From Aureimonas flava (GTDB lineage: Bacteria; Pseudomonadota; Alphaproteobacteria; Rhizobiales; Rhizobiaceae), in assembly GCF_003583935.1 (NCBI RefSeq), contig NZ_QYRN01000004.1, forward strand, positions 1 through 64,000: a stretch of 64,000 bases of DNA. Reading direction: 5' to 3'. The position numbers and the translations under genes are program-made. The notes below the pieces were generated by a model. The model ran no database searches. It was not told the DNA's origin and saw nothing but the letters and a program-made list of their open reading frames with translations. Below, piece after piece: positions 1 to 29,700 of this stretch (its first letter is position 1; each line of letters starts with the position of its first letter).

Positions 1-77
1 TCATCACGGTGATCCATCACCATCCGAACCGCACGGGCGCGGACCTCGGGACTAAACGGCGGTGTTCTCTTCGTCAT
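1..77 (-). CDS. IS3-family transposase OrfA, N-terminal fragment
   Basis: From the ATG at 77-75 the minus strand encodes MTKRTPPFSPEVRARAVRMV and continues to the window edge. The pattern [K/R]R..FSPEVR.RAVRMV is the usual N-terminus of IS3-group OrfA, which carries the helix-turn-helix that binds the IS ends. Only about 25 residues are visible. The start is supported by a GAGAGGATGG stretch just upstream. The catalytic OrfB would lie beyond position 1. Confidence 0.75.
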   Translation of the reverse strand, partial: MTKRTPPFSPEVRARAVRMVMDHRD

Positions 78-127
78 GGCTCCATCCTCTCAAGAGTTGG
101 AGCCTCCGACAAACCCGGGGCGGTTCA
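1..127 (-). mobile_element. IS3-family insertion sequence, left end only
   Basis: The minus strand from 127 reads TGAACCGCCCCGGGTTTGTC, followed about 50 bp later by an ATG opening an IS3-type OrfA. A short TGA-start terminal sequence close to orfA fits IS3-family ends as I know them. The element enters the coding frame of the cargo gene at 567-128 and replaces its 3' end. Most of the IS, and the target duplication on its other side, are outside the window. Confidence 0.7.
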
Positions 128-567
128 GAGCTAGTTTCGGGAAGTTCGACCACGATCACCAAGGGCGGTCCTTTAAGGATAGCCGACAGCGCGCCTTGGA
201 TGCCTGCCACCATCTGGACGCCGCTCCCCGTGCCAGAAGCGAAGGTCGATGGACCCAGGCGATGCAGAGGCAGGCCAGCCGCATCCGCGAAACGGCGGAC
301 TGCGGTCATGGCGCCGAGATCGTCGCGATCGTCTATGACCATTCGGCTCTCGACATCGCGCCATGCGATCCGTCCGGCCTGGAACGCCTCCAGGTCGAAG
401 AGACTGCATCGAGCCCAGCGCCCCGTCTCCCCGAAGCCCTCCAGGCCTGGCACCTGCATCTCTTCGAAGGTCGTGTCGACCGCCGTCGCAGGGCGCTCCA
501 ACGCCCGACGGATTCTCTCTACGGTATGGTCGGGCATCCAGTCCGAGGGACGGTCGAGCACGATCAT
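52..567 (-). pseudogene. Unrecognised cargo gene C, 3' end replaced by IS3
   Basis: This is the third gene of a minus-strand cargo operon. The ATG at 567 overlaps the stop of the preceding gene (ATGA), a better start than a longer in-frame ATG at 606. About 146 native residues run from MIVLDRPSDWMPDHTVERIR to ...VIVVELPETSS. The frame then enters the IS3 end at 127 and reads about 24 foreign residues to a stop at 52, so the native C-terminus is missing. I recognise no family. The native part looks like a soluble mixed alpha/beta protein, with no membrane segment or signal peptide and a Gly/Ser/Thr-rich stretch near residues 105-125. The fused product may be inactive. Confidence 0.6.
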
Positions 568-824
568 CGGCGATCCTCCCGGCGGTCGATCTGCCTTTCC
601 AGCCAAGCGATGACAGCCGGCGTGGCCGCGTTTCCCGACATGGCGTGCGTCCTCAGACGGGAGTGGATCCGGCGGAGCACGATAGGGTCGGCATCGGGAT
701 GCCGACCCAGGCGAAGGGCCGCGCCGATGACGGTCGCCGGGCCGACCTGGAGGATTTGGGCCCCGGACGAGCGTTGGCCTTCGGAAAGGGGATCGACCCC
801 AACCCGTTCAGGTATGGATGACAT
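564..824 (-). CDS. Unrecognised cargo gene B, 86 aa
   Basis: A small basic protein of 86 residues starting MSSIPERVGVDPLSEG. It is coupled by ATGA overlap to the next gene and lies 64 bp after gene A, so the three appear to form one operon. The C-terminal half (PIVLRRIHSRLRTHAM...AVIAWLERQIDRREDRR) should be helical and is rich in Arg, perhaps for nucleic-acid or partner contacts; that is inference. I recognise no domain. The ribosome site before the ATG is weak (GGAAA), and translation may depend on gene A. Confidence 0.55.
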   Translation of the reverse strand: MSSIPERVGVDPLSEGQRSSGAQILQVGPATVIGAALRLGRHPDADPIVLRRIHSRLRTHAMSGNAATPAVIAWLERQIDRREDRR

Positions 825-888
825 CTGGGAATTTCCGGGCTTCGAGTGCGGAGGCGCGTGTCGGCGCGTGGACCTGGCCAGCCCGAGG

Positions 889-1188
889 CTAGAGTCGACG
901 AAGGACGATTTCCGGATCGATCACGTGACGATCATACTCCGCGTCGATGACGCCACGATTCATCAGCACGATGATCTGGCCGTAGGGGTGCGTATGATCG
1001 TGCCCGACGATCTGCAGTGCCTCGTCCAGGGAGATGGTCGAGCCTGGAACGGGAATCAGGTCGAGGAGGTCCCTCTGGGCACGGCTGAACGTCGTCCGGT
1101 AGGGCGGGCGATCCGCGATCACCGCGGCGTCCATGAGCTTATCGGTGTCAGTGCGGGCGGAAGCGGTTTCCTCGAAACGCATGTACAT
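889..1188 (-). CDS. Unrecognised cargo gene A, 99 aa
   Basis: First gene of the cargo operon. The ATG at 1188 follows a good ribosome site (GGAGAGG, spacing 6). The 99-residue product starts MYMRFEETASARTDTDKL. Residues about 40-99 (TISLDEALQIVGHDH... to EIVLRRL) could fold as a small winged-helix domain, but I cannot assign a family. A quasi-palindromic operator lies 118 bp upstream (1306-1320) and is shared with the divergent xre gene, so repression by that XRE protein is likely. No transmembrane segment or toxin signature is visible. Confidence 0.6.
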   Translation of the reverse strand: MYMRFEETASARTDTDKLMDAAVIADRPPYRTTFSRAQRDLLDLIPVPGSTISLDEALQIVGHDHTHPYGQIIVLMNRGVIDAEYDRHVIDPEIVLRRL

Positions 1189-1305
1189 GGGCTGCCTCTC
1201 CGTCGGTCCGGTGAAAGGGATTGGCGGCTCGGTTCCGAGCGGCCTCTTGATGCCTGCGCATTCCGGGACGGAGAACGGGAAGACCGTAGACTGGTTTCAA
1301 AAAAT

Positions 1306-1320
1306 GATACATGAAGCATC
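1306..1320 (-). promoter_or_regulatory. Putative XRE operator O1 (cargo side)
   Basis: On the minus strand this reads GATGCTTCATGTATC, with half-sites GATGC and GTATC separated by 5 bp. It lies 118 bp upstream of the cargo operon start. It matches sites 1582-1596 and 8570-8584 at nearly every position. Confidence 0.5.
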
Positions 1321-1581
1321 TTTCGTCGTTGTCACGGTTAACGTTCAATGAATGGTGTTCATCTCTGAGGCTCGATCATGCCAGGAGCCTATGGAGCCTC
1401 CTGAGCAGGCTGTCGGATCGTTGAGATTTGGCCCGATAACACTCACGCAATCCGATGCGGGATCGGGTCTGGTGGATGATTTCCGCTGAGCTGCAGTCGG
1501 CAGGAGCGCGCCTGAGCCGTCGCCAACCGAGTATCCAGGCTCCGGACTGTGGACAACAGGCAAATTACCGTCGACGACAAT

Positions 1582-1596
1582 GATGCATCATGTATT
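1582..1596 (+). promoter_or_regulatory. Putative XRE operator O2 (xre promoter)
   Basis: Reads GATGCATCATGTATT and ends 27 bp before the xre start codon, a position suited to autorepression. The core ATGATGCATCAT (1580-1591) is a perfect palindrome. It is related to O1 and to the site in the transposon end. Confidence 0.5.
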
Positions 1597-1623
1597 GAAA
1601 ACGCATCAATGGAGGACCAACTG

Positions 1624-1965
1624 ATGACTATTCAGGAGACCGTGGGGCCGCGTTTTGATGGAGCCTCATGCCGGGGGGCCAGGGCCTTGCTCGGAATCTC
1701 GCAGACCGAACTTGCGACCGCAGCGGGTTGCGGGAGGAAGCTGGTCAACGACTTCGAGAACGGGGGCGTTGTGCCCAAGGCGACCAAAGTCGCAGCGATG
1801 CGTGAGGCGCTCGAGGAAGCTGGCGCCGTGTTCGTCAGGATCGACGACATGCTCATGATCGGCGTCCGACCAGGGCAGGGAGCTCCCCGTTCGGCTCGGG
1901 CGCGCGTGTTCGAGGAAAGGCCAGGGAACTCGACCGAGACGCCCGAGGACGACCGCGAAGGTTGA
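1624..1965 (+). CDS. XRE-family transcriptional regulator
   Basis: A 113-residue protein with a lambda-repressor-like helix-turn-helix at about residues 15-65 (GARALLGISQTELATAAGC, then KLVNDFENG). A charged, Pro/Glu-rich tail (about 88-113) follows and has no domain I know. The start at 1624 is chosen over upstream ATGs because GGAGG lies 8 bp before it. The gene sits between tniQ (convergent, 85 bp away) and the divergent cargo operon. Three copies of one quasi-palindrome near the cargo operon, xre and the tns end are its likely targets. It may silence both cargo and transposition until derepressed; that is inference. Confidence 0.85.
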   Translation: MTIQETVGPRFDGASCRGARALLGISQTELATAAGCGRKLVNDFENGGVVPKATKVAAMREALEEAGAVFVRIDDMLMIGVRPGQGAPRSARARVFEERPGNSTETPEDDREG

Positions 1966-2050
1966 CGGCGAATGCTTTGATCGCTCACCCCGCCCCGAAG
2001 TTTCGGTTCAGGGCGCCGATCCACCAAATCGGCATCCACGCCTCCCGTCG

Positions 2051-4030
2051 CTACACATCTTGGATGTCGGGATCGATCCACTCGGCCATGAACGGACCGA
2101 CTTCCGTGCGATCGTAGATCAAAGCCGGGCGTCGTCCTTTTTCTTCGACGGTATGCAAGGGGTGGATGCCGTGACGTGCGAGGACATTCCGTCCCTCCAT
2201 GTGGCGCCACGACGTTCTCTCATTCGCCTCCTTGAGTGTGACGTATCGCTGGAGAAAACCTCTAAGATTGCCCCAGGACACGGTCCCCTCGGGCAGAAGG
2301 CCAAGCTCACGGAGGCCTGCGACGTTCTCTGCCCGCGCACGGATGGTCGTCCAGATCTCTTCGAAGGTGGCGATCGTGCAAGGCGCTGGAGGCGGCATCG
2401 CTCTGATCGATCCATCGATGACCAGACGGGCCAAGGGCATCCCGGTCGGGACTAGAATCATGTCTGCGAGCTTCCTTCCGTCAGGATCGATGCCGAAGGC
2501 AAACCGACCCGACAACAGAAGCTGGAGAATGGACGGCCATGGACGATGCCGCATCGGTAATGCAGCGAGGCTTTCCCAGAGCGGAATGGAAGGGCCACCC
2601 GTTCGTAGCGAAGCCTTCGCGCGGAGTGTGGCCTCGAGCAGATCCACGCTACGGATGGAGTAGGCGATCGCGCCGATCGAAGCCGTCGCGGCTTCACTGA
2701 CGCGATCTATGAGCCCTGCCTCGTGCAGAGCGCCCACCGCAATCGAAGGGAAGCCCAGACGACGGGTAAGGGCGTACGTCGAAGCTGCGTCGTCAACCTC
2801 CTTCCGCAGCGCTTCCAGGGCTTTCAGATCGTACATCCTCAACCCATGAGTTTGCGCGGGCGAAGTCATCTCGATCACGCCGGCAACGGCCAACTGTCGC
2901 AACTTGAGGATGCTGAACGAAAACACCTCGACGGCGGACTTCTGGGTGACGAAGCCGGTGACCGGCCCGACCTTGGTCCGTGCCCTTTTCGAGCTTCCCA
3001 GCCGATGGCAATCGAGCCCCGCCCTGAGCACTGAAGCGACCGACGACGTGGCGGCCAGCAAGCGCACTTCGCGGTCGATGGAGATTTCGTGGTATTTCTT
3101 TGCGACACGAACTACGCCTTTCACGGACGCATCGATGCCATCGAGAACGAGCCGTAGACCATGCGGCCATTCCAGAAGCGCACGTCCGGCACAAGCGATT
3201 GCCTGCGGATGTATACTCGCCTTCGCTCGAGCATTCCCGCCCCCCATTCTTACGAGCCTCGAAAATCCGATCGAGCGATGCTGAGCGTAGTTGCTGAGAC
3301 GGAGCACCATCTCCGTGAGTTGCTCACCGGACAATCCTGAAAGTGAATTCGGGATGTCGTCGTGGGCGCTTTCTCGGATCGCAGGTGATGTCGAGACCAA
3401 AGCCACGGCGAACTTCAGCGCTTTCATATCGTCGCACTCGAACGGGCGGGGCGGGCAGTCACGCAGGTCAACCGTCGGGAGGCCACGTTCATCGACGCAC
3501 CTCTCGCAATGAACCGGCCCCAGCGCCCTTTTCCATCCGAAAGGTCGCTGGCAGGCCGGGCACTCTTCCAGAAGACGCTCGCCACTGATCGGGCATACGG
3601 ATATGGCGGCGATGTCCCAAGACGCGTGATGCCATGGCTCGAGTCTCAAGGTCGCCGGGGAGACACGTCGCGTTCGCGGGGACACCGACTCAGACGGAAA
3701 CTGGAACCCATCGTAGACGAGGCCGGTGGTGCGCCTCCCCCACACCATCCTGGACAGCATCTGCGGATCGCTCCGCGTCACCACGGCGATCCGGCCCAGG
3801 AGATCGTCGTCGGCGAAGGCCAGCGCTTCGGGATAGACCCAGTGCCGACCGGTCAAGCGTAGAGCATTCGCCGTTTTCGTGTACCAGTTTCGAGCGCTCA
3901 CCCTTGTCCAGAAGCCCATGAGACTTTCGTCCCTCGCCGGAACGTCGGTCCAGGAGAATGGACGAACGATCCCGTGAAGTGGATGACTGAAGGTACGGGT
4001 GGCGCCAGGCGGCGAGGTGTCGTCAGACAT
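2051..4030 (-). CDS. tniQ: TniQ/TnsD-family target-selection protein
   Basis: This 659-residue protein has the TniQ N-terminus (PARDESLMGFWTRVSARNWY, about 31-50) and a zinc-binding cluster at C146, C157, C160, C175 and C178, with H134/H135 nearby. TniQ proteins bridge the target DNA and the TnsC filament. Long TnsD-like members have C-terminal helix-turn-helix modules that read a fixed attachment site, and the length here fits that class rather than the short CRISPR-associated TniQ. The start codon lies 1 bp after the tnsC stop (TAGGATG), so translation is coupled. It ends the tnsABC-tniQ operon. Given the transposon end 21 bp from tRNA-Met, the predicted attachment site is that tRNA gene. 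Confidence 0.85.
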   Translation of the reverse strand: MSDDTSPPGATRTFSHPLHGIVRPFSWTDVPARDESLMGFWTRVSARNWYTKTANALRLTGRHWVYPEALAFADDDLLGRIAVVTRSDPQMLSRMVWGRRTTGLVYDGFQFPSESVSPRTRRVSPATLRLEPWHHASWDIAAISVCPISGERLLEECPACQRPFGWKRALGPVHCERCVDERGLPTVDLRDCPPRPFECDDMKALKFAVALVSTSPAIRESAHDDIPNSLSGLSGEQLTEMVLRLSNYAQHRSIGFSRLVRMGGGNARAKASIHPQAIACAGRALLEWPHGLRLVLDGIDASVKGVVRVAKKYHEISIDREVRLLAATSSVASVLRAGLDCHRLGSSKRARTKVGPVTGFVTQKSAVEVFSFSILKLRQLAVAGVIEMTSPAQTHGLRMYDLKALEALRKEVDDAASTYALTRRLGFPSIAVGALHEAGLIDRVSEAATASIGAIAYSIRSVDLLEATLRAKASLRTGGPSIPLWESLAALPMRHRPWPSILQLLLSGRFAFGIDPDGRKLADMILVPTGMPLARLVIDGSIRAMPPPAPCTIATFEEIWTTIRARAENVAGLRELGLLPEGTVSWGNLRGFLQRYVTLKEANERTSWRHMEGRNVLARHGIHPLHTVEEKGRRPALIYDRTEVGPFMAEWIDPDIQDV

Positions 4031-4031
4031 C

Positions 4032-5021
4032 CTAAGGTACGAGGCTCCGAAGCCTCAGATACTTCTGTGCGGCATCCTGTATGTCTGAGTGCACGAGGCG
4101 CCTTGCGTCGCTTCTCGCTGCACTGATCGCGTGCTCCACGATCCGGTATGCGAGGCCGATTCGGCCTTCGCTTGCCGAGAACAGCGTCATCAGCGTTTCC
4201 TGCTCCGACAACCCGGAATACTCTTCGAAGATCGCCCAGCGGACCATTGCGCTGTCGAGGCCGCTGACGAAGGTTTGAAACTGAGCCCGCGATTCTGCAT
4301 CTTCGAAATTGCACTTCTCGACCTCGATCCGGTCGAACATCCGGTTCACGACCTGAGCGTCCCGTAGGATCGTATTCATCTCATCCTTGAGCCCGATCAG
4401 GACGAGGGAGACGCCATTGCCCTGGACAGTTCTTTTGAGACTGTCGATCAACGCTGGAGACTCACGGGTCCGCGAGGTCAGATTCGACGCCTCGTCGATG
4501 ACGAGCAGATGGGTTGAGTGAGCTTCCGCCAACTTCAAGACCCGCATTTCGAGTGCGGTGCGGGAACCGGCGGGTTCGGGATCTCCAAAGCCGTTGAGGA
4601 CCGACTCCCACATCGATTTGACATTGGCACCGCCCCGCAGCGACGCGTAGACCATCGGTCGCGAACCAAGTTTTAGCCCGGCGTTGGGAAGTACATAGGA
4701 TCCGAAAATCTTGACGGACTCGCTTTTTCCGACGTGAGACTCGCCGACGATCGCCATGATCGACCCGTCGATGGGCGGCATGGAACTACCACTTTCGAGC
4801 AAAGCCTTGTTTGTCAGCTTCCTAGCAGCCTCCTGCTTGTACATTGCAAGCATCGCCTTACTGATCCGGAGGCCGTCTGTCGACGGCAGCTTGATAGACG
4901 AGAACAGGGCCTTCCTCCGGGCGATTACTCCGAGGTTCGCACCTTCTATCTCCGCGATGATCGCATTCAACTGGCGCATGGCAGGCGAAAAAATCAGATG
5001 GTCATCGATATCTGTATGCAT
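4032..5021 (-). CDS. tnsC: TnsC/TniB-like AAA+ ATPase regulator
   Basis: A 329-residue AAA+ protein with Walker A GESHVGKS (93-100) and Walker B LLVIDEA (172-178). Downstream motifs include LVLIGLKDEM (sensor-like) and an arginine-containing VVNRMFDRIEVE stretch. In Tn7 and Tn5053 relatives this ATPase polymerises on target DNA, receives the TniQ signal and activates the transposase. The start ATG at 5021 follows AGGA at suitable spacing and lies 44 bp after tnsB. The C-terminal ~40 residues are helical and probably contact TnsA or TnsB, as in Tn7. Confidence 0.88.
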   Translation of the reverse strand: MHTDIDDHLIFSPAMRQLNAIIAEIEGANLGVIARRKALFSSIKLPSTDGLRISKAMLAMYKQEAARKLTNKALLESGSSMPPIDGSIMAIVGESHVGKSESVKIFGSYVLPNAGLKLGSRPMVYASLRGGANVKSMWESVLNGFGDPEPAGSRTALEMRVLKLAEAHSTHLLVIDEASNLTSRTRESPALIDSLKRTVQGNGVSLVLIGLKDEMNTILRDAQVVNRMFDRIEVEKCNFEDAESRAQFQTFVSGLDSAMVRWAIFEEYSGLSEQETLMTLFSASEGRIGLAYRIVEHAISAARSDARRLVHSDIQDAAQKYLRLRSLVP

Positions 5022-5065
5022 CTTGTCCTACTTCTTCTGTAACGAGCCACTGCAGTCGAACCTGA

Positions 5066-7246
5066 TCATTCCTCGAAATATCGAGAGAAGCTGACGGCCC
5101 CGGACTTGGTGTTCTGGCGCCACTCCACCTCGAGGGCCGGTGGCGCCGGCGTGGTGGTCAAGGGGAGTGGGACGGGGGTGGGAGTCGGTTTCAGGACCGC
5201 GTCGAAAGCATGCTCGGGCGTAGGTTGACCCGCAGCCTTCCGTGCCCTCGTCGCCTTCGCGGTACGACTGGCCTTCTGCGCACCGCGGCGGCGTCCAGGC
5301 TCTGTGGTTCCGTCATCGAGGCGCTCCGCCGACGCCAGGCCGACCGGAATGAAACTGCCGTTCGTCTCATCCACGACCATCTCCATGACGTGTCTTCCCA
5401 GAGGATCCGGCGCGGAGGTGATCCGCCTCGCGGCAGTCAACCGCTTGCCCTTGAGGCCAGGTGAGAGGGAGTCGATCAGGTCGAGCACACGGGCGCGGCC
5501 ACGGATCCGATCGGCCTCGCTTTCGAACTCCTCCCCCTGCGCAATCACGTAACGTCGGATGATTTCGCAGGATTCAAAGGATAGACCTTCAGAAAAACGG
5601 GGATCGACGTTGGGAAGGATTGCGTATTCTTTTCGTATGCCGTTCCATACCAATATCCGAGATGCATCCTCGGGATCCCATTTCATCTTGACCTTGGCCG
5701 TGCCGGACGACAACTTCCCTTTGCGGCCGGGTCCACCACGCTTCTTCGGAACGAGATCGAGGAGGAGATCGGTTGTGGTGTTCTGATCGTGAAAGCGGAG
5801 ATTGCGGAAGCGCACTCCCTGACGCGTTAGGAGCGCTTCACCGTAGGTTCCCAGTTCCTCCGCCACACGAGACGGGTCGGCGACGTAGGGCTGACCATGA
5901 ATCTTGGTCAATCGATCCCAGGCCGCGGCGGGAGCGACTTCACCGATGCCGTCGTGTGGGGCACGCTGGTAGTCGTCGACGATGATCGAGGCGAGAACGC
6001 GGTCGGCATCGCCCAGTGTCGCTACCGCCGTCACCTCCGGGTCTATTCCCAACGCCGCCATCTGCTGTCTCGGCAGGGGTTTCGCACCCCCGATCGAATG
6101 GAGACCCTTTGATTTGATCGTCCAATGCAACCTCTCGCAGACCGACTTGTACGTGGGGGACCCGACCGGAGCCCACTCGGCGTCGATGCCGATTGCAGTC
6201 ATCGCGTCGACGAAGCTCCTGCCCACCTGCGCCGTGGCGTTGTCGAGGACGATCTGCGTGGGAAGTCCGAACACGGCATGGTCGTTCAGGAGGCCGTGAA
6301 GTGCTTTCAGACCCGTCTTCGGCATCAGGATCCGCATGACGAGGCGGAAGACCGACGCTAAAGTCTCGCCTCCGAAGCCGATGTACCAGGCGAGCACGGA
6401 TCGCGTCGCCACATCGACGGCGACATAAACGATCGCAGTGCCGAGGATGGCTCCAGTCCGGTCGTCTACGATCAGGACGTCGCTGGGCGTTGCGTCGATG
6501 ACGACGCATTCCAAAGGGCGATCGGCGTGCGGGCCCTTGCCGACGCCCTTGAACCGAGCCTTGGCGGTCAGAGCGCCGAATTTTCTGAGGATATTCTCGT
6601 AGGTCGCGGCTGCGCCGATCCTCAATCCAAGCGTCTCCTCCGAAGGAGGGGCACCCTGGTAGCCGACCTCGTCCAGTCTGCTCCGAAGTTTCACGTAGGC
6701 GTCGCGCCTCTTCGTGGCGCGCCTATCGTAGTAGTAGGCGACTGCAAAGGTAATCGCCTCCTCGACGACCTCGTCCATGCGCGTGGGATGCTCCGCCACC
6801 GATCGTCCGTCGATCATGTCCTTGAGTTTGCGCGAACCTGGAACTCCCCTCTGGCATACCGCTCTCTCGAGTTGGGTTGCGGTGACGGGCGAGTGGCCTT
6901 TGCGTTCTGCAGTTCCCGTGGACGATTTGATGAAACGCGCAATCGCGTTTCGGCTCCGCGAGCAACCCGACACGTCAAAGTGGTTGCACCACCACAAAAG
7001 GCCCCTGGCAGCGATCAGCCGCTTGTCGGTCGCCTCGAGCGGTGGAAGGTTGGCTTCGGCCTTCTCCGGTGCTTCTACAGCTACCGCTCGCCGATCGTGA
7101 TAAAGCTGCTCCAGATCATCCGCTGCAATGGTCGATATGGCACCGCCGACTTTCGCGACCAGCACTACGGTACCGTCGTGATGCTGTGAGTCGACGATCT
7201 TGATCGAGCCGTCTATCCGCCAGGTCCGGTACTGCGTGAAATCCAT
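5066..7246 (-). CDS. tnsB: TnsB-like DDE transposase (Mu/rve type)
   Basis: This 726-residue transposase has a retroviral-integrase-like core with the DDE triad D251 (VVIDATPSD), D335 (IVLDNATAQ) and E371 (SVCERLHW). N-terminal helix-turn-helix regions (about 75-230) should bind the repeated sites in the transposon end. A basic, Pro/Thr-rich C-terminal tail (about 620-726) probably contacts the ATPase. TnsB joins the 3' ends to target DNA. I chose the ATG at 7246 rather than 7318 because the longer form would overlap tnsA by 70 bp. At 7246 the start lies 2 bp after the tnsA stop. The tail ends SGAVSFSRYFEE. Confidence 0.9.
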   Translation of the reverse strand: MDFTQYRTWRIDGSIKIVDSQHHDGTVVLVAKVGGAISTIAADDLEQLYHDRRAVAVEAPEKAEANLPPLEATDKRLIAARGLLWWCNHFDVSGCSRSRNAIARFIKSSTGTAERKGHSPVTATQLERAVCQRGVPGSRKLKDMIDGRSVAEHPTRMDEVVEEAITFAVAYYYDRRATKRRDAYVKLRSRLDEVGYQGAPPSEETLGLRIGAAATYENILRKFGALTAKARFKGVGKGPHADRPLECVVIDATPSDVLIVDDRTGAILGTAIVYVAVDVATRSVLAWYIGFGGETLASVFRLVMRILMPKTGLKALHGLLNDHAVFGLPTQIVLDNATAQVGRSFVDAMTAIGIDAEWAPVGSPTYKSVCERLHWTIKSKGLHSIGGAKPLPRQQMAALGIDPEVTAVATLGDADRVLASIIVDDYQRAPHDGIGEVAPAAAWDRLTKIHGQPYVADPSRVAEELGTYGEALLTRQGVRFRNLRFHDQNTTTDLLLDLVPKKRGGPGRKGKLSSGTAKVKMKWDPEDASRILVWNGIRKEYAILPNVDPRFSEGLSFESCEIIRRYVIAQGEEFESEADRIRGRARVLDLIDSLSPGLKGKRLTAARRITSAPDPLGRHVMEMVVDETNGSFIPVGLASAERLDDGTTEPGRRRGAQKASRTAKATRARKAAGQPTPEHAFDAVLKPTPTPVPLPLTTTPAPPALEVEWRQNTKSGAVSFSRYFEE

Positions 7247-7248
7247 GA

Positions 7249-7980
7249 TCAGGCCCACCCATTCCAGGACTCCAGGGTGGTGACCCGCCTGCAAACGGCC
7301 GCCGGCGAGCGGCCCCACACGTCCGACCAGGTGACGAGACGGCGGATCGCCAGTGCATCGAGGCGGGCCGCGCCGAGAGGGCCGCCACCGAGCAGGTCGA
7401 TGATCGTGCGGCGATTGGATCGGCCGCTTTCAGCGGCCTGCACGGCGCCGAAGACCATTCGATCGGGAATGACGACGCGACGCGACGGCCACATGATGGT
7501 CGCGGCGCGATAGACCCTCGAGGCGCGTAAGTCCGCCTCGTGGACGATGTCGAACGCATATCCGATCGAGCGGTACACCTCGCCGGCCATCGCAAGCTTG
7601 CGGCGGTATGCAGGGTCGAGCCAACGTTTGTCACTCGAACCCTTGACCTCGATCACGCGGATCGAGTTGTCCACGTGTACGCACTCGATGTCCGGGTAAA
7701 AGTCGAGGTGTCTCGCTCCGTCGTCCATCCGGAGGAGATGGGGTTGAGCCATGTATCCAATGACCGAAACATCGGATTCGAGCACCTTGATCGCCAGAAA
7801 CTCCGCCGGCGACTCGTATGCTATGGGCAGACCGACCTTCAAGCTGGACACGATGCCGACCGGAACGGTTCTATGTCCGGGTATGATGCGCCGGATGGGC
7901 TTGCCGTCGGCTCGGCGAATGATCGCAGCCCTGGACCTCGCGCATATGATTGAAAGAACTTCTTGATCGACGATCGCCAT
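7249..7980 (-). CDS. tnsA: TnsA-like endonuclease
   Basis: A 243-residue protein with a PD-(D/E)xK nuclease core: D97 in HLDFYPDIEC and E111/K113 in IRVIEVKGS, spaced as in TnsA. TnsA cuts the 5' strands at the element ends, so TnsA plus TnsB gives cut-and-paste rather than replicative transposition. The ATG at 7980 has a strong ribosome site (AAGGAG, spacing 6); an upstream in-frame ATG at 8070 lacks one. It is the first gene of the tnsA-tnsB-tnsC-tniQ operon, behind a structured leader (8075-8132). The C-terminal ~80 residues would be the TnsC-contacting winged-helix part. Confidence 0.85.
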   Translation of the reverse strand: MAIVDQEVLSIICARSRAAIIRRADGKPIRRIIPGHRTVPVGIVSSLKVGLPIAYESPAEFLAIKVLESDVSVIGYMAQPHLLRMDDGARHLDFYPDIECVHVDNSIRVIEVKGSSDKRWLDPAYRRKLAMAGEVYRSIGYAFDIVHEADLRASRVYRAATIMWPSRRVVIPDRMVFGAVQAAESGRSNRRTIIDLLGGGPLGAARLDALAIRRLVTWSDVWGRSPAAVCRRVTTLESWNGWA

Positions 7981-8074
7981 TTGCCACTCCTTGGGCAAAA
8001 GACACCGCCACGCAGACGGCCTTGACCTCGACGCCGAGGTACGCGATCGTAATGCGTCAGACGATGACAAGACG

Positions 8075-8132
8075 GTTCCGGGGGGTTACCCGGATCGAAC
8101 TGGGCGTGCGGATTTCCTAGGTCCGCACGCCC
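8075..8132 (-). promoter_or_regulatory. Two stem-loops in the 5' leader of tnsA
   Basis: Positions 8102-8112 and 8122-8132 form a perfect 11-bp stem (GGGCGTGCGGA / TCCGCACGCCC) with a 9-nt loop. Next to it, 8075-8100 can fold with CCGGG/CCCGG and outer GTTC/GAAC pairs. Both lie 95-150 bp upstream of the tnsA start, and neither is followed by a T run. If the operon is transcribed from farther upstream, they sit in its leader and could affect translation, stability or pausing. CATTTCCTAG at 8137-8146 echoes GATTTCCTAG in the first hairpin (8111-8120). Confidence 0.45.
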
Positions 8133-8404
8133 TCCTCATTTCCTAGCGTTCCATCGTCGTCGTATCCTCCAAATGCCTCTTCCGGCGCGCTTTCTGCCTA
8201 GATGGTAGCGAATCACCGGCGCTCGTCAAACGCGCTGATCAAGTATTTCAGTCTCTTGGGCTCGTCCGACGACGCAGATTCGCAAGGATCGAATTTCTCA
8301 GTGAGTCAAGTGATTCGACTTGACAGTACCTCTGACTGGCGCTGGAGTTGGAATTGCCTGCGGAGGACTCCGTTTCGCTTTTGAGTCGAGATTAGATTAG
8401 CCTA

Positions 8405-8423
8405 ACGAAAAATTATTTTTCGT
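8405..8423. promoter_or_regulatory. AT-rich palindrome in tns upstream region
   Basis: ACGAAAAA and TTTTTCGT are exact inverted repeats around TTA. In such GC-rich DNA this is conspicuous. It may be a protein-binding site for tns expression or a small terminator-like stem. There is no direct evidence for either. Confidence 0.4.
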
Positions 8424-8569
8424 ATGCTCCGTCCCCTTGGGAGAAGTTGTGCGCTAAGGACTATGGAGCCTTCGACTGACTAGCTCGGCGAGCATCCCCG
8501 GATGCCATATGCGTCCGCAGCGGAGTTGAGCCCTCGCCAACCCAGCGATAACGCACTCGCGCGGAAAAA

Positions 8570-8584
8570 GATGCATGATGTATT
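8570..8584 (+). promoter_or_regulatory. Putative XRE operator O3 (transposon end)
   Basis: Reads GATGCATGATGTATT, differing by one base from O2 at 1582-1596. It lies about 590 bp upstream of tnsA and 514 bp from the transposon terminus, so the XRE protein could act on the tns promoter region or on end architecture. Confidence 0.45.
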
Positions 8585-8841
8585 TTTTTAGGCTTGCTAC
8601 GGCTGTGTAAGACGACAAAAACAGGCGCTCCGTTGCACCTATCCTCATGAAGCGGATCCACAGGTGACTGCCTCTCAACGACCTGCTTCGGGCAGACCGA
8701 AGTAGACCAGGGGCCGGTCGAAGGTGGCAGAATTTGCAGCGCACTGGGGGGGGGGCCCCGTCGTTGCGACGGAGTTGCGGCTGGTTGGACGTCCGGTCAT
8801 CTCCGATCGAGGAGAGGTCTTGTTGATAGCGCACCGTCCAA

Positions 8842-9098
8842 TTTGGATCTGCGGCAAATCGCTGCTCTGCCGATCAATCAGGTCGATCGCGTTTCCGTTG
8901 GACGATGTCGGTAAAAATATAAGCCTTTACATACGCTTAGTCTGATAGTTCTCGGCGCAGTTTGCCGCAGATCCAAATTGGAACTGCGGCAAATGCATCT
9001 CAAGAAAGCGGATATTCCGCGTTGCCGCAGATCCAAGCCAGATTTGACGCAGATCCAAGTACTGCGGACATTTGACGCAGATCCAAGTACTGCGGACA
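8842..9098. repeat. Transposon right end: six TnsB-type binding repeats
   Basis: Six related motifs (consensus TTGGATCTGCGKCAAA, read inward) are visible. Those on the minus strand are 9071-9098, 9043-9070, 9022-9037 and 8961-8977. Those on the plus strand are 8842-8859 and 8978-8994 (variant GGAACTGCGG). The outer two are an exact tandem. Tn7-family ends carry several ~20-bp TnsB sites in this way. The 8842-8858 and 8961-8977 copies form a perfect 17-bp inverted pair flanking about 100 bp of AT-richer DNA. The mix of orientations is unusual for Tn7 ends. Confidence 0.75.
9043..9098 (-). repeat. Exact tandem 28-bp terminal repeat
   Basis: Positions 9043-9070 and 9071-9098 are identical 28-mers. 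Read inward, each begins TGTCCGCAGTAC and ends TGCGTCAAA. The outermost copy defines the terminus (TGT at 9098-9096). Head-to-tail abutting sites at the extreme end fit cooperative TnsB binding. The second copy also starts with TGT, so a 28-bp-shorter end might be usable. Confidence 0.75.
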
Positions 9099-9119
9099 CG
9101 TGCGGGGTTCGGAAGCGTT

Positions 9120-9196
9120 TGGTAGCAGTGGGCAGATTTGAACTGCCGACCTCCGGGTTATGAATCCGGCGCTCTCACCAACTGAGCTACACTGCC
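9120..9196 (-). tRNA. tRNA-Met (CAT anticodon)
   Basis: The minus strand from 9196 starts GGCAGTGTAGCTCAGTTGGT and folds as a full cloverleaf: acceptor GGCAGTG with CACTGCT, D arm GCTC...GAGC, anticodon loop TTCATAA, T arm with GTTCAAAT, and an encoded CCA at 9122-9120. The CAT anticodon can be initiator Met, elongator Met or Ile2. The sequence resembles elongator tRNA-Met of Rhizobiales, but a lysidine-modified Ile2 is not excluded. The Tn7-like end lies 21 bp beyond its 3' end. Confidence 0.93.
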
Positions 9197-26710: not shown

Positions 26711-29700
26711 TCAATGCGCCGGCTCGGCCGCCGGCGGCGTGGCGGCGCCGGTCTTCTTCGGCTTCTTGTCGCGCGCGAGCAGCTTGTAGAACAGCGGCAC
26801 GAAGAAGATGGCCACGAAGGTCGCCATCAGCATGCCGCCGATCACGCCGGTGCCGATGGAATGACGGCTGGCCGAGCTCGCGCCCGTGGCCAGCGCCAGC
26901 GGCACGACGCCGAGGATGAAGGCGAGGGACGTCATCACGATCGGGCGGAAGCGCAGCTTGGCCCCTTCCAGTGCCGCGTCGAAGGCCGACAGGCCTTCCT
27001 CGCGTTTCAAGACCGCGAATTCCACGATCAGGATGGCGTTCTTCGCCGCCAGTCCGACCAGGGTGACGAGGCCGATCTGGAAGTAGGTGTCGATCTCAAG
27101 CCCCCGCAGCCAGATGGCCAGCAGGGCGCCGAACATGGCGAAGGGCACGGCGAGGATCACCGCGATCGGCAGCGACCAGCGTTCGTACTGCGCCGACAGA
27201 ATCAGGAACACCATCACCATGCCGAAGCCGATGGCGATAGCCCCGGTGCCGCCGGCCTGGATCTCCTGATAGGCCGAGCCCGTCCAGGCGATCTCGTAGC
27301 CCTCGGGCAGCGCCTCGGCCGCCGCATCCTGCATGGCCTGGAGCGACTGGCCGGACGAGTAGCCCGGCGCCGGACCGCCGGATACCTTGGCGGCGTTGAA
27401 GGCGTTGAACCGCTCGATCAGGTCCGGCCCGACGATGCGCTTGGTGATCAGCAGCGAATCCAGCGGCACCATGGAGCCGTTGGACGCCTGCACGTAGACG
27501 AAGCGCAGGTCCTCCGGCTTCTCACGGAAGTCCGCTTCCGACTGCAGCGAGACGCGGTAGTTGCGCCCGAGCAGGGTGAAGTCGTTGACGTAGAGCGAGC
27601 CGAAGGTCGACTGCATGGTCTCGAAGATCGAGGAGATCGGCACGCCGAGCGCCTTGGCCTTCTCGCGGTCGACGTCGATCTGGTACTGCGGCACGTTGGC
27701 TTCGAACGTGGTGCGCACGCCCGCGAGCTCGGGTCGCTTCGCCGCGGCGGCGACGAGCGCGCTGGTCGCCTCGATCAGCCCCTGGCTGCCCTGGCCGGTC
27801 CGGTCCTGGACGAAGAGGTCGAAGCCGCCGGTGGTCGACAGGCCCTGGATCGGCGGCGGCGAGAAGGCCAGCACCATGCCGTCCTGGATGCCGGCGTTCA
27901 TGCCGATGAACGTGCCGGGCAGGTTGCGCGCGTCCAGCGACGGGTCGTTGCGCTCGGACCAGTCCTTGAGCGTCACGAAGGCCGCGCCGGCGCTCGACTT
28001 CTGCGAGCCCGACAGGAGGTCGAAGCCGGCGAAGGCCACGACGTCCTCCACCGCCGGATGCTTGCGGATGTTGGCCGAGACCTGGTTCATCACGTCGGTC
28101 GAGCGCGACAGCGAGGCCGCCGGCGGCAGGATCGCGACGGCGAGATTGGTGCCCTGGTCCTCATCCGGCACCAGCGAGGAGGGGATGGTCTGGAAGAAGT
28201 AGACCGTTCCCCCGATCAGCGCGGCGAACAGGACGAGCGACAGGAAGGCGCGCCGCATCACGAAGGCGACGCCGTGGCCGTAGCCGTCGGTGAGCCGGTC
28301 GAACATCCGGTTGAACCAGCGGAACGGAGCCATCGGCTCCTTGTGCTCCTCGCGCAGGATCAGGCCGCACAGGGCCGGGGTCAGGGTCAGCGCGACGATG
28401 CCCGAGATGGTCACGGAGGTCGCGATCGTCACCGCGAACTGGCGGTACATGGTGCCGGTCAGCCCGCCCAGGAAAGCGACGGGGATGAACACGGCGCACA
28501 GGACGAGAACGATCGCGATCACCGGCGAGGTGACCTCGCCCATCGCCTTGGCGGTCGCGTCCTTGGGCGACAGATGCTCGTCGCGCATGATGCGCTCGAC
28601 GTTCTCCAGCACCACGATCGCGTCGTCCACCACGATGCCGATGGCGAGCACGAGGCCGAACAGGGTCAGAAGGTTGATCGAGAAGCCGAGCGCCAGGAGC
28701 ACGCCGAACGTGCCGATGATCGACACCGGCACGGCGATCATCGGGATCAGCGTGGCGCGGAAGCTCTGGAGGAACAGGTAGACCACGATCAGCACCAGGA
28801 TCATCGCCTCGATGAAGGTGTGGATCACCGATTCGATGGAGGCGTTGATGAACTTGGTCGTGTCGTAGGGGATGGCGTAGGTGATGCCGTCCGGGAACGA
28901 CTTGGACAACTCCTCCATCCGCGCGTTGACGGAGGCGAGCACGTTCAGCGCGTTGGCGCCGGGCTGGAGATAGAGACCGATGGGGATCGTCTCCGAGCCG
29001 TTGTAGGTGGCGTTGAAGGCGTAGTCCTGGGCGCCGAGCTCGACGCGCGCCACGTCCTTCAGAAGCAGCGAGGCGCCGTTGGCGTCGGAGCGGATGATGA
29101 TGTTCTCGAACGCCTGCGCGTCGGGCAGCCGCCCGGCCGTGGTCACCGAATAGGTGAAGGCGAGGGGCGTGTCGGAGGGCTGGGCGCCGAACTGGCCGGC
29201 GGCGAACTGGGCGTTCTGCTCGCGGATCGCGGTGGCGACGTCGCCGGGGGTGAGCTGGTACTGCGCGAGCTGGTCGGGCCGCAGCCAGATGCGCATGGAG
29301 TAGTTGCGCTGGCCGAAGAGCTGGGCGTTGCCGACGCCCGGCACGCGCTTCAGCTCGTCCAGCACGTAGAGAAGCGCGTAGTTCGACACGTAGGTCGCGT
29401 CGTAGCGCGGGTCTGAGGACGACATGGTCGCCACCGCCAGGATGGACGACGACTGCTTGGTCACCGTCACGCCGAGGCGCTGCACCTCGGACGGAAGCGA
29501 GGAGATCGCCTGCTGGACGCGATTGTTGACGTTGATCGTCGCCTGGTCCGGGTCCGTGCCCGACTGGAAGGAGACGTTGATGGTCGAGGTGCCCGCCGAG
29601 GAGTTCGACGAGCTCATGTAGATCATGTCCTCGACGCCGTTGACGACCTGCTCGATCGGCGCGGCGACCGTCTGGGCCACGGTCTCGGCCGAGGCGCCGG

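Follow-up and report, generated by a model that had tools for sequence, protein, structure and literature searches.

The window analysed here, a stretch of 64,000 nucleotides at the start of contig C21 of the Aureimonas flava assembly, carries the genes and one end of a Tn7-like transposon that lies just behind a tRNA-Met gene. From its open reading frames (ORFs), the minus strand between 2051 and 7980 was read as one operon, tnsA-tnsB-tnsC-tniQ, whose products have the expected active-site residues. TnsA (7249-7980, minus strand; ORF 7249-8070, with a Met at 7980) is a PD-(D/E)xK endonuclease with D97, E111 and K113, and TnsB (5066-7246, minus strand; ORF 5066-7318, with an internal Met at 7246) is a DDE transposase with D251, D335 and E371, residues being counted from the respective Met. 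TnsC (4032-5021, minus strand) is an AAA+ regulator with GESHVGKS from residue 93 and LLVIDEA from residue 172, whilst tniQ (2051-4030, minus strand) encodes a putative target selector of 659 residues with a C157-C160-C175-C178 motif. A first-pass annotation had named these four genes, their catalytic residues, the Walker A and B motifs and the TniQ cysteines, all of which are as it wrote them. Moreover, the named TnsA, TnsB and TniQ residues, together with K99, S100, D176 and E177 of TnsC, are invariant across alignments of 4-6 relatives.

Family searches agree with this reading to differing degrees. TnsC matches Pfam TniB (1e-17) and AAA_22 (2.3e-12) as well as PADLOC TnsC (3.2e-14), and its profile finds VchTnsC at 4.3e-25. 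TnsB matches Pfam rve and Mu-transpos_C, both below cut-off, and its profile recovers solved TnsB structures, the best being 9y7b (1.9e-54). The window TnsA has no match in Pfam and reaches NCBIfam TnsA_like_Actin at 2.4e-11, below cut-off; TnsA_like_N is matched by two of five aligned TnsA proteins from relatives, and a profile search of solved structures gave 9bw1 at 1.7e-5. Pfam TniQ scores 25.3 bits on the protein, below the cut-off of 27, and 28.1 bits on the DNA, above it. A TniQ profile that includes relatives matches solved TniQ chains, the window protein alone giving a weak match. The genes of a Tn7-like element are thus all present, namely a TnsB DDE transposase with a TnsC AAA+ ATPase, a TnsA endonuclease and a TniQ/TnsD selector. 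Because TnsA is present and retains its catalytic residues, transposition would presumably be of the cut-and-paste kind.

The tRNA-proximal terminus (9043-9098) consists of two perfect tandem 28-bp repeats with the final bases GTACTGCGGACA. When read as TGT/ACA, the last base of the element is 9098, and a spacer of 21 bp at 9099-9119 separates it from the tRNA CCA, of which 9099-9103 (CGTGC) would be the target duplication. Beyond it lies the proposed attachment site, a tRNA-Met gene detected by ARAGORN at 9120-9196 on the minus strand, with anticodon CAT and an encoded CCA, whose full-length sequence is present once in the genome. We take this tRNA to be of the elongator type; here and below the names initiator, elongator and Ile2 are our own assignments, as ARAGORN labels every CAT tRNA Met. 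The sequence TTGMCGCAGATCCAA occurs six times within 8843-9086 (five exact copies and one with one mismatch), and inner repeats TTGCCGCAGATCCAA within 8843-9036 (8843-8857, minus; 8962-8976, plus; 8978-8992, minus, one mismatch; 9022-9036, plus) resemble transposase sites and are probably bound by TnsB. Allowing three mismatches, the window holds seven repeat matches against a shuffled mean of 2.28, seven being reached in 1 of 100 shuffles. The genome as a whole has seven exact matches to the end repeat, five in the window and two on contig C26; allowing up to two mismatches gives 20 places, of which ten are isolated two-mismatch matches elsewhere. The genes and the repeat-rich end just behind a tRNA gene bear out the description of a Tn7-like element of an alphaproteobacterium.

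The only other genomic cluster of the repeat is on contig C26 and ends at 27709, where C26:27682-27709 agrees with the window terminus in 24 of 28 terminal bases. A matching far terminus, as expected, is therefore present in the assembled genome, and the paired ends carry several transposase-site-like repeats and the TGT...ACA bases. The interval 2051-9196, originally given as the element, holds the operon and the tRNA-side end only, the remainder reaching the contig start. We infer that the window end and the C26 end are partners and that the element continues onto C26, in which case it measures at least 36.8 kb. Chromosomal sequence starting near C26:28342 matches DNA that 7 of 14 sister regions carry on the 3′ side of tRNA-Met. 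Between this match and the tRNA-Met-side match lie 38-144 bp in the three nearest regions (L065, L066, L067), and in the other four (L070, L071, L075, L076) the C26 match starts about 2 kb further in. C26-flank DNA is on the opposite side of the tRNA in two regions (L077, L078), the usual tRNA-Met neighbour is not in the fetched stretch of four (L068, L069, L073, L074), and the last (L072) stops 77 bp beyond the tRNA, which makes it uninformative. Related Aureimonas species therefore carry an uninterrupted tRNA-Met site. As the two ends face each other across an interval that is uninterrupted in sisters, the element would occupy that interval, comprising C26:1-27709, window 1-9098 and the DNA between them. 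Since insertion sequence (IS) DNA closes both contigs and several others, the gap may conceal just an IS, or more contigs.

Relatives were collected, with matches in 4 of 21 genomes from the genus, 6 of 397 of an order sample, 3 of 385 of a class sample, 23 of 265 in the genus of genome G327 and 12 of 394 of a family sample, counts that include the own genome where it was sampled and that rest on E limits differing between samples. The 45 loci retained comprise the window with G411, G404 and G416 (E to 1e-5); G222, G327, G076, G034 and G375 (two loci; to 1e-10); and, to 1e-20, G035 and G432; G1007, G848, G919, G959, G943, G1021, G854, G881, G826, G1011, G989 (two), G930, G900, G812, G886, G856, G1006, G993, G838, G1041 and G803; and G1269, G1143, G1208, G1252, G1414 (two), G1299, G1190, G1248, G1169 and G1141. 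Several are broken genes, and the flanks covered 0-40 kb per side, some reaching contig ends. G1299 and G1248 are counted once each; in both, two different tniQ genes lie a few kb apart (C17:22581-27992 and C7:85779-91086, respectively). The nearest relative found is that of G411 (36% over 280 residues). A single-sequence search of genome contigs returned no close relative of the window TniQ, a two-row alignment returned one, from Aureimonas phyllosphaerae, viral contigs gave none and a plasmid search gave five weak partial matches.

In 16 of the 45 loci, the window included, a repeat-array terminus lies 12-30 bp beyond a tRNA 3′ end. The tRNAs are elongator Met in one case (the window, 21 bp), initiator-type Met in one (G411, 30 bp), another CAU tRNA in 11 (G404, G416, G327, G848, G900, G035, G886, G856, G993, G826 and G881; 12-20 bp) and His in three (G1011 and G930 at 16 bp, and copy b of G989 at 15 bp). 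G035, G886 and G856 are apparently one lineage, and in G416 the final A of the tRNA CCA is not encoded. Some relatives (G411, G900, G1011, G930, G989) end in TAT rather than TGT. Identical 5-bp flanks were present in all six relatives for which both ends were located, namely CTTCG in G848 and in G327, CTCGC in G900, CCAAG in G411, AGTTG in G989 copy b and CGAGC in G989 copy a; in G411 and G900 the duplication itself helped to choose the exact end base. In G993 the uninterrupted flank CGCTTCGCCCTTCGGGCTACG, as predicted from G848 and G327, follows a tRNA 3′ fragment. G989 holds two elements of 42,238 bp each, identical over the 20 kb compared, of which copy b has AGTTG on both sides; its TniQ is 85% identical to that of G1011, also at tRNA-His. 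The terminal sites of the G411 element are GTGAGTCA, and a second array of CAAACGAGTC repeats lies inside both ends (C15:41012-41094 and 84427-84543) in the same orientation at both. Generic end-repeat scans of relatives without an assigned end mostly failed. A CGACTCG array in G222 (L119:13702-13850), about 15 kb from tnsA and about 330 bp from a tRNA-Gln on its 5′ side, may be the end of that element.

Taken together, we consider it highly probable that this is a Tn7-like transposon whose long TniQ acts as a TnsD-type protein target selector and homes to a position just past a tRNA 3′ end. TniQ would bind the 3′ half of the tRNA gene in DNA and recruit TnsC; TnsA and TnsB would then excise the element by cutting at the repeat-rich termini. 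Joining would follow a short way beyond the tRNA 3′ end (21 bp in the window and 12-30 bp across the family), so that the tRNA stays intact and a 5-bp duplication arises. The window lineage would use an elongator-type tRNA-Met, other lineages an initiator-type Met, another CAU tRNA or His. Measured from the insertion centre, the positions in six cases are +12 to +28 for the tRNA 3′ end and +53 to +69 for the anticodon (the values for G989 copy b, computed with a spacer of 16 where the real spacer is 15, should be read one less). Tn7 TnsD is described as binding at +23 to +58, inside glmS, with the TnsCD complex reaching the insertion point (PMC2918618). A Tn7-like geometry would place TniQ on the T arm, the variable region and the anticodon stem of the tRNA gene. 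The first-pass annotation had proposed that TniQ recognises tRNA-Met. What stands of this is the end beside tRNA-Met and, in some relatives, the same geometry with 5-bp duplications; what does not is an exclusive tie, given that relatives also lie at another CAU tRNA, at tRNA-His and in a tlyA-like gene. The TniQ lineage contains tRNA-homing members and is not tied to tRNA-Met.

Several observations weigh against this reading. No tRNA-adjacent end was seen in the fetched stretches of 27 of the 45 loci, and in G943 and G1021 both sides were searched in near-complete genomes with the same outcome. G1143 has a CAT tRNA on the tnsA side and no recognisable end, and is therefore outside the 16. In most cases, the window among them, it is the tnsA side that faces the tRNA, and in G826, G881, G1011 and G989 copy b it is the tniQ side. 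Copy a of G989 (C1:3345914-3388151; L237, L236) has an intact TniQ and splits a frame that, from its motifs, we take to be tlyA-like, with CGAGC on both sides; the G989 pair thus indicates that the element is able to transpose and that, besides homing to a tRNA gene, it at times inserts at other places. A TniQ tree of 39 rows shows no single origin of the CAT-tRNA label, which takes six changes, 15 of 500 shuffles being as low; the labels predate the identification of the G826, G881 and His-locus tRNAs, and the fragments G803, G1041, G838 and G993 were left out. Its joining of the window with G411 rests on long branches and is possibly false according to the program's warning. A control speaks for the reading: the 20 other TniQ matches in the genus (22 minus the window and the G411 locus on C15) fall in 17 regions of 12-20 kb, none of which has a CAT tRNA and one of which has a tRNA-Pro; these regions extend about 10 kb from tniQ, and the tRNAs of G416, G327, G848 and G993 lie at least 20 kb from theirs. 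At the window itself, the duplication of 9099-9103 that had been expected, and whose absence was to count against the proposal, is missing, as CGTGC lies outside the right end and GATGA outside the far end. Moreover, about 630 bp (C26:27710-28341; L023:710-1341) lie between the far end and conserved chromosome. Two candidate arguments were dropped. A strict rule of CAT anticodons, conceived after 13 loci, was ended for the family as a whole by the three tRNA-His loci, and a binomial base rate of 4e-5 to 8e-5 for a random end within 30 bp of a CAT tRNA end was not relied on, as it assumed tRNA numbers and treated related loci as independent.

The missing duplication is also what speaks for the C26 end having come from a different copy, such that the two ends never belonged to one element. 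Repeated IS sequence closes the contigs, which leaves room for others in between. Against this, the genome has just two clusters of the repeat, which face each other across an interval uninterrupted in sisters, and we regard separate copies as unlikely. The missing duplication is most simply read as the result of either a deletion or some second event on the far side, with no evidence favouring one over the other. The stretch of about 630 bp has no match in sisters or among the loci compared and is possibly a remnant of an earlier insertion. The element is filed as Tn7-like on its genes and ends; for the window insertion, the mark of duplication was either lost or the ends are mispaired. A further alternative is that targets are near-random and tRNA sites are the survivors, since insertion behind tRNA genes is harmless. 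Such a view accommodates the perfect duplication of G989 copy a, one of two equally long copies, the 27 loci lacking a tRNA-adjacent end and the G222 array on the 5′ side of tRNA-Gln. As ends were sought on the 3′ side, the side of the tRNA is not independent evidence. Nevertheless, 16 termini fall in a narrow 12-30 bp beyond the tRNA 3′ end, and harmless intergenic space is far larger; we find survivorship quite unlikely.

A tyrosine-recombinase island could instead have integrated at the tRNA with the Tn7-like element as its passenger. The genomes of several relatives contain fragments of tRNA 3′ ends, a mark of integrase islands, the G993 element sits between a full tRNA and a 3′ fragment, and in the four sister regions whose fetched stretch lacks the usual tRNA-Met neighbour other DNA may be inserted. 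However, what lies 12-30 bp from the tRNA is the Tn7-like terminus itself, six relatives show 5-bp duplications, and the own genome has one full tRNA-Met match only, making an island with a passenger very unlikely. Islands at tRNA-Met have been described in Vibrio, one with an integrase adjoining the tRNA (PMC6360697). The four sister regions without the usual neighbour have no match to the window Tns proteins, and two of them (L073, L074) have TGCGACA-type repeats near tRNA-Met in common; tRNA-Met may be a hot spot for several kinds of element. Homing by a guide RNA matching the tRNA gene, as in a CRISPR-associated transposon (CAST), would fit the finding that type I-F3 CAST proteins are the best solved-structure matches for the TnsB, TnsC and TniQ profiles, and type V-K elements are reported to use guides to tRNA genes (PMC11406308). 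Yet Pfam identified no cas family in the 18 of 28 picked C26 ORFs or the nine window proteins scanned, a search that does not cover the gap between contigs, and neither C26:1-27000 nor window 1-9098 contains CRISPR-like direct repeats. Exact matches between the element and the tRNA region reach 11 bases at most, where 40 shuffles gave 10-14, and TniQ has 659 residues against 369-462 for the matched CAST TniQ and TnsD chains. We therefore hold RNA guidance to be exceedingly unlikely.

Homing by TniQ to tRNA genes leads to a wider and tentative proposal, to which we give somewhat less than even chances. One alphaproteobacterial TniQ lineage may read tRNA genes as DNA, from T arm to anticodon stem, and may have moved among at least four of them (elongator Met, initiator Met, another CAU and His) and between both orientations, also transposing off-site. 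If true, this would be a natural series from which to learn how such a selector protein acquires a new address. The way in which Tn7-type selectors switch targets matters in practice for the protein-guided insertion of DNA. The family gives matched cases with similar geometry at four tRNA genes and known duplications, and one genome holds the same element at a tRNA site and in a coding gene. The window and its relatives suggest transposons that are guided by a protein and for which tRNA genes serve as safe places to land.

The other parts recognised are cargo and IS DNA. A helix-turn-helix (HipB/antitoxin-like) regulator at 1549-1965 (plus strand; HTH_3 at 1.5e-6, TIGR03070 at 7.3e-6, below cut-off) has a 69% DNA match inside the G411 element. 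A short ORF at 889-1188 (minus strand) has no family match and is likely cargo; a 208-bp stretch of its region is 78% identical inside the G411 element (L136). Positions 1-128 (minus strand) are the end of an IS at the contig break, the 28 bases at 101-128 matching the IS end that begins C26 and other contigs; 3-77 (minus strand), with no Pfam match, is presumably the start of an IS protein. Among the 18 of 28 picked C26 ORFs scanned are two HWE kinases, one AraC and two LysR regulators, an IS1595 transposase, a catechol-dioxygenase-type enzyme, dehydrogenases and an alpha/beta hydrolase. A Fic-domain protein at C26:19758-21404 (L022:9758-11404) matches SoFic in PADLOC.

A limited literature search recognised no description of this alphaproteobacterial tRNA-homing TniQ group, which does not imply its absence from print. 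With Tn7 the element shares gene logic, multi-site ends, insertion shortly past a conserved gene and, in its relatives, the 5-bp duplication. It differs in that the target is a tRNA gene, in four cysteines instead of CCCH, and in that no TnsE was noticed, though no search aimed at TnsE was made; the Tn7 Tns proteins are distant, Tn7 TnsB being matched at 3.1e-16 by profile. The Tn5053 family, which is not known to carry TnsA, is similar in having TniQ with a TniB-like ATPase. It differs in targeting plasmid resolution sites (PMC11406308). Type I-F3 CASTs (Tn6677, PseCAST and others) provide the best solved-structure profile matches for TnsB, TnsC and the TniQ N-terminus, a similarity that need not mean kinship, and they are described as having a short TniQ tied to Cascade and attachment sites mostly chosen by guide RNA (PMC11406308). 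Homing of TniQ/TnsD proteins to tRNA genes has precedents, especially among CRISPR-associated elements. Tn7-like elements apparently insert downstream of tRNAs (PMC8649781), CyCAST inserts about 30-33 nt past tRNA-Leu (PMC10293859), and, according to PMC11406308, tRNA genes are the targets of TnsD in type I-B2 and I-D CASTs, different ones having repeatedly become attachment sites of Tn7-like elements via TnsD/TniQ. These CASTs (PmcCAST, CyCAST, McCAST) are described as carrying a fused TnsA-TnsB and a CRISPR-Cas module (PMC11406308), whereas the present element encodes TnsA and TnsB as separate genes, and the parts scanned showed no Cas gene. They resemble the A. flava element in having a selector protein of the TniQ/TnsD kind that homes to tRNA genes, and to such homing the present work adds an alphaproteobacterial group with a useful spread of targets.

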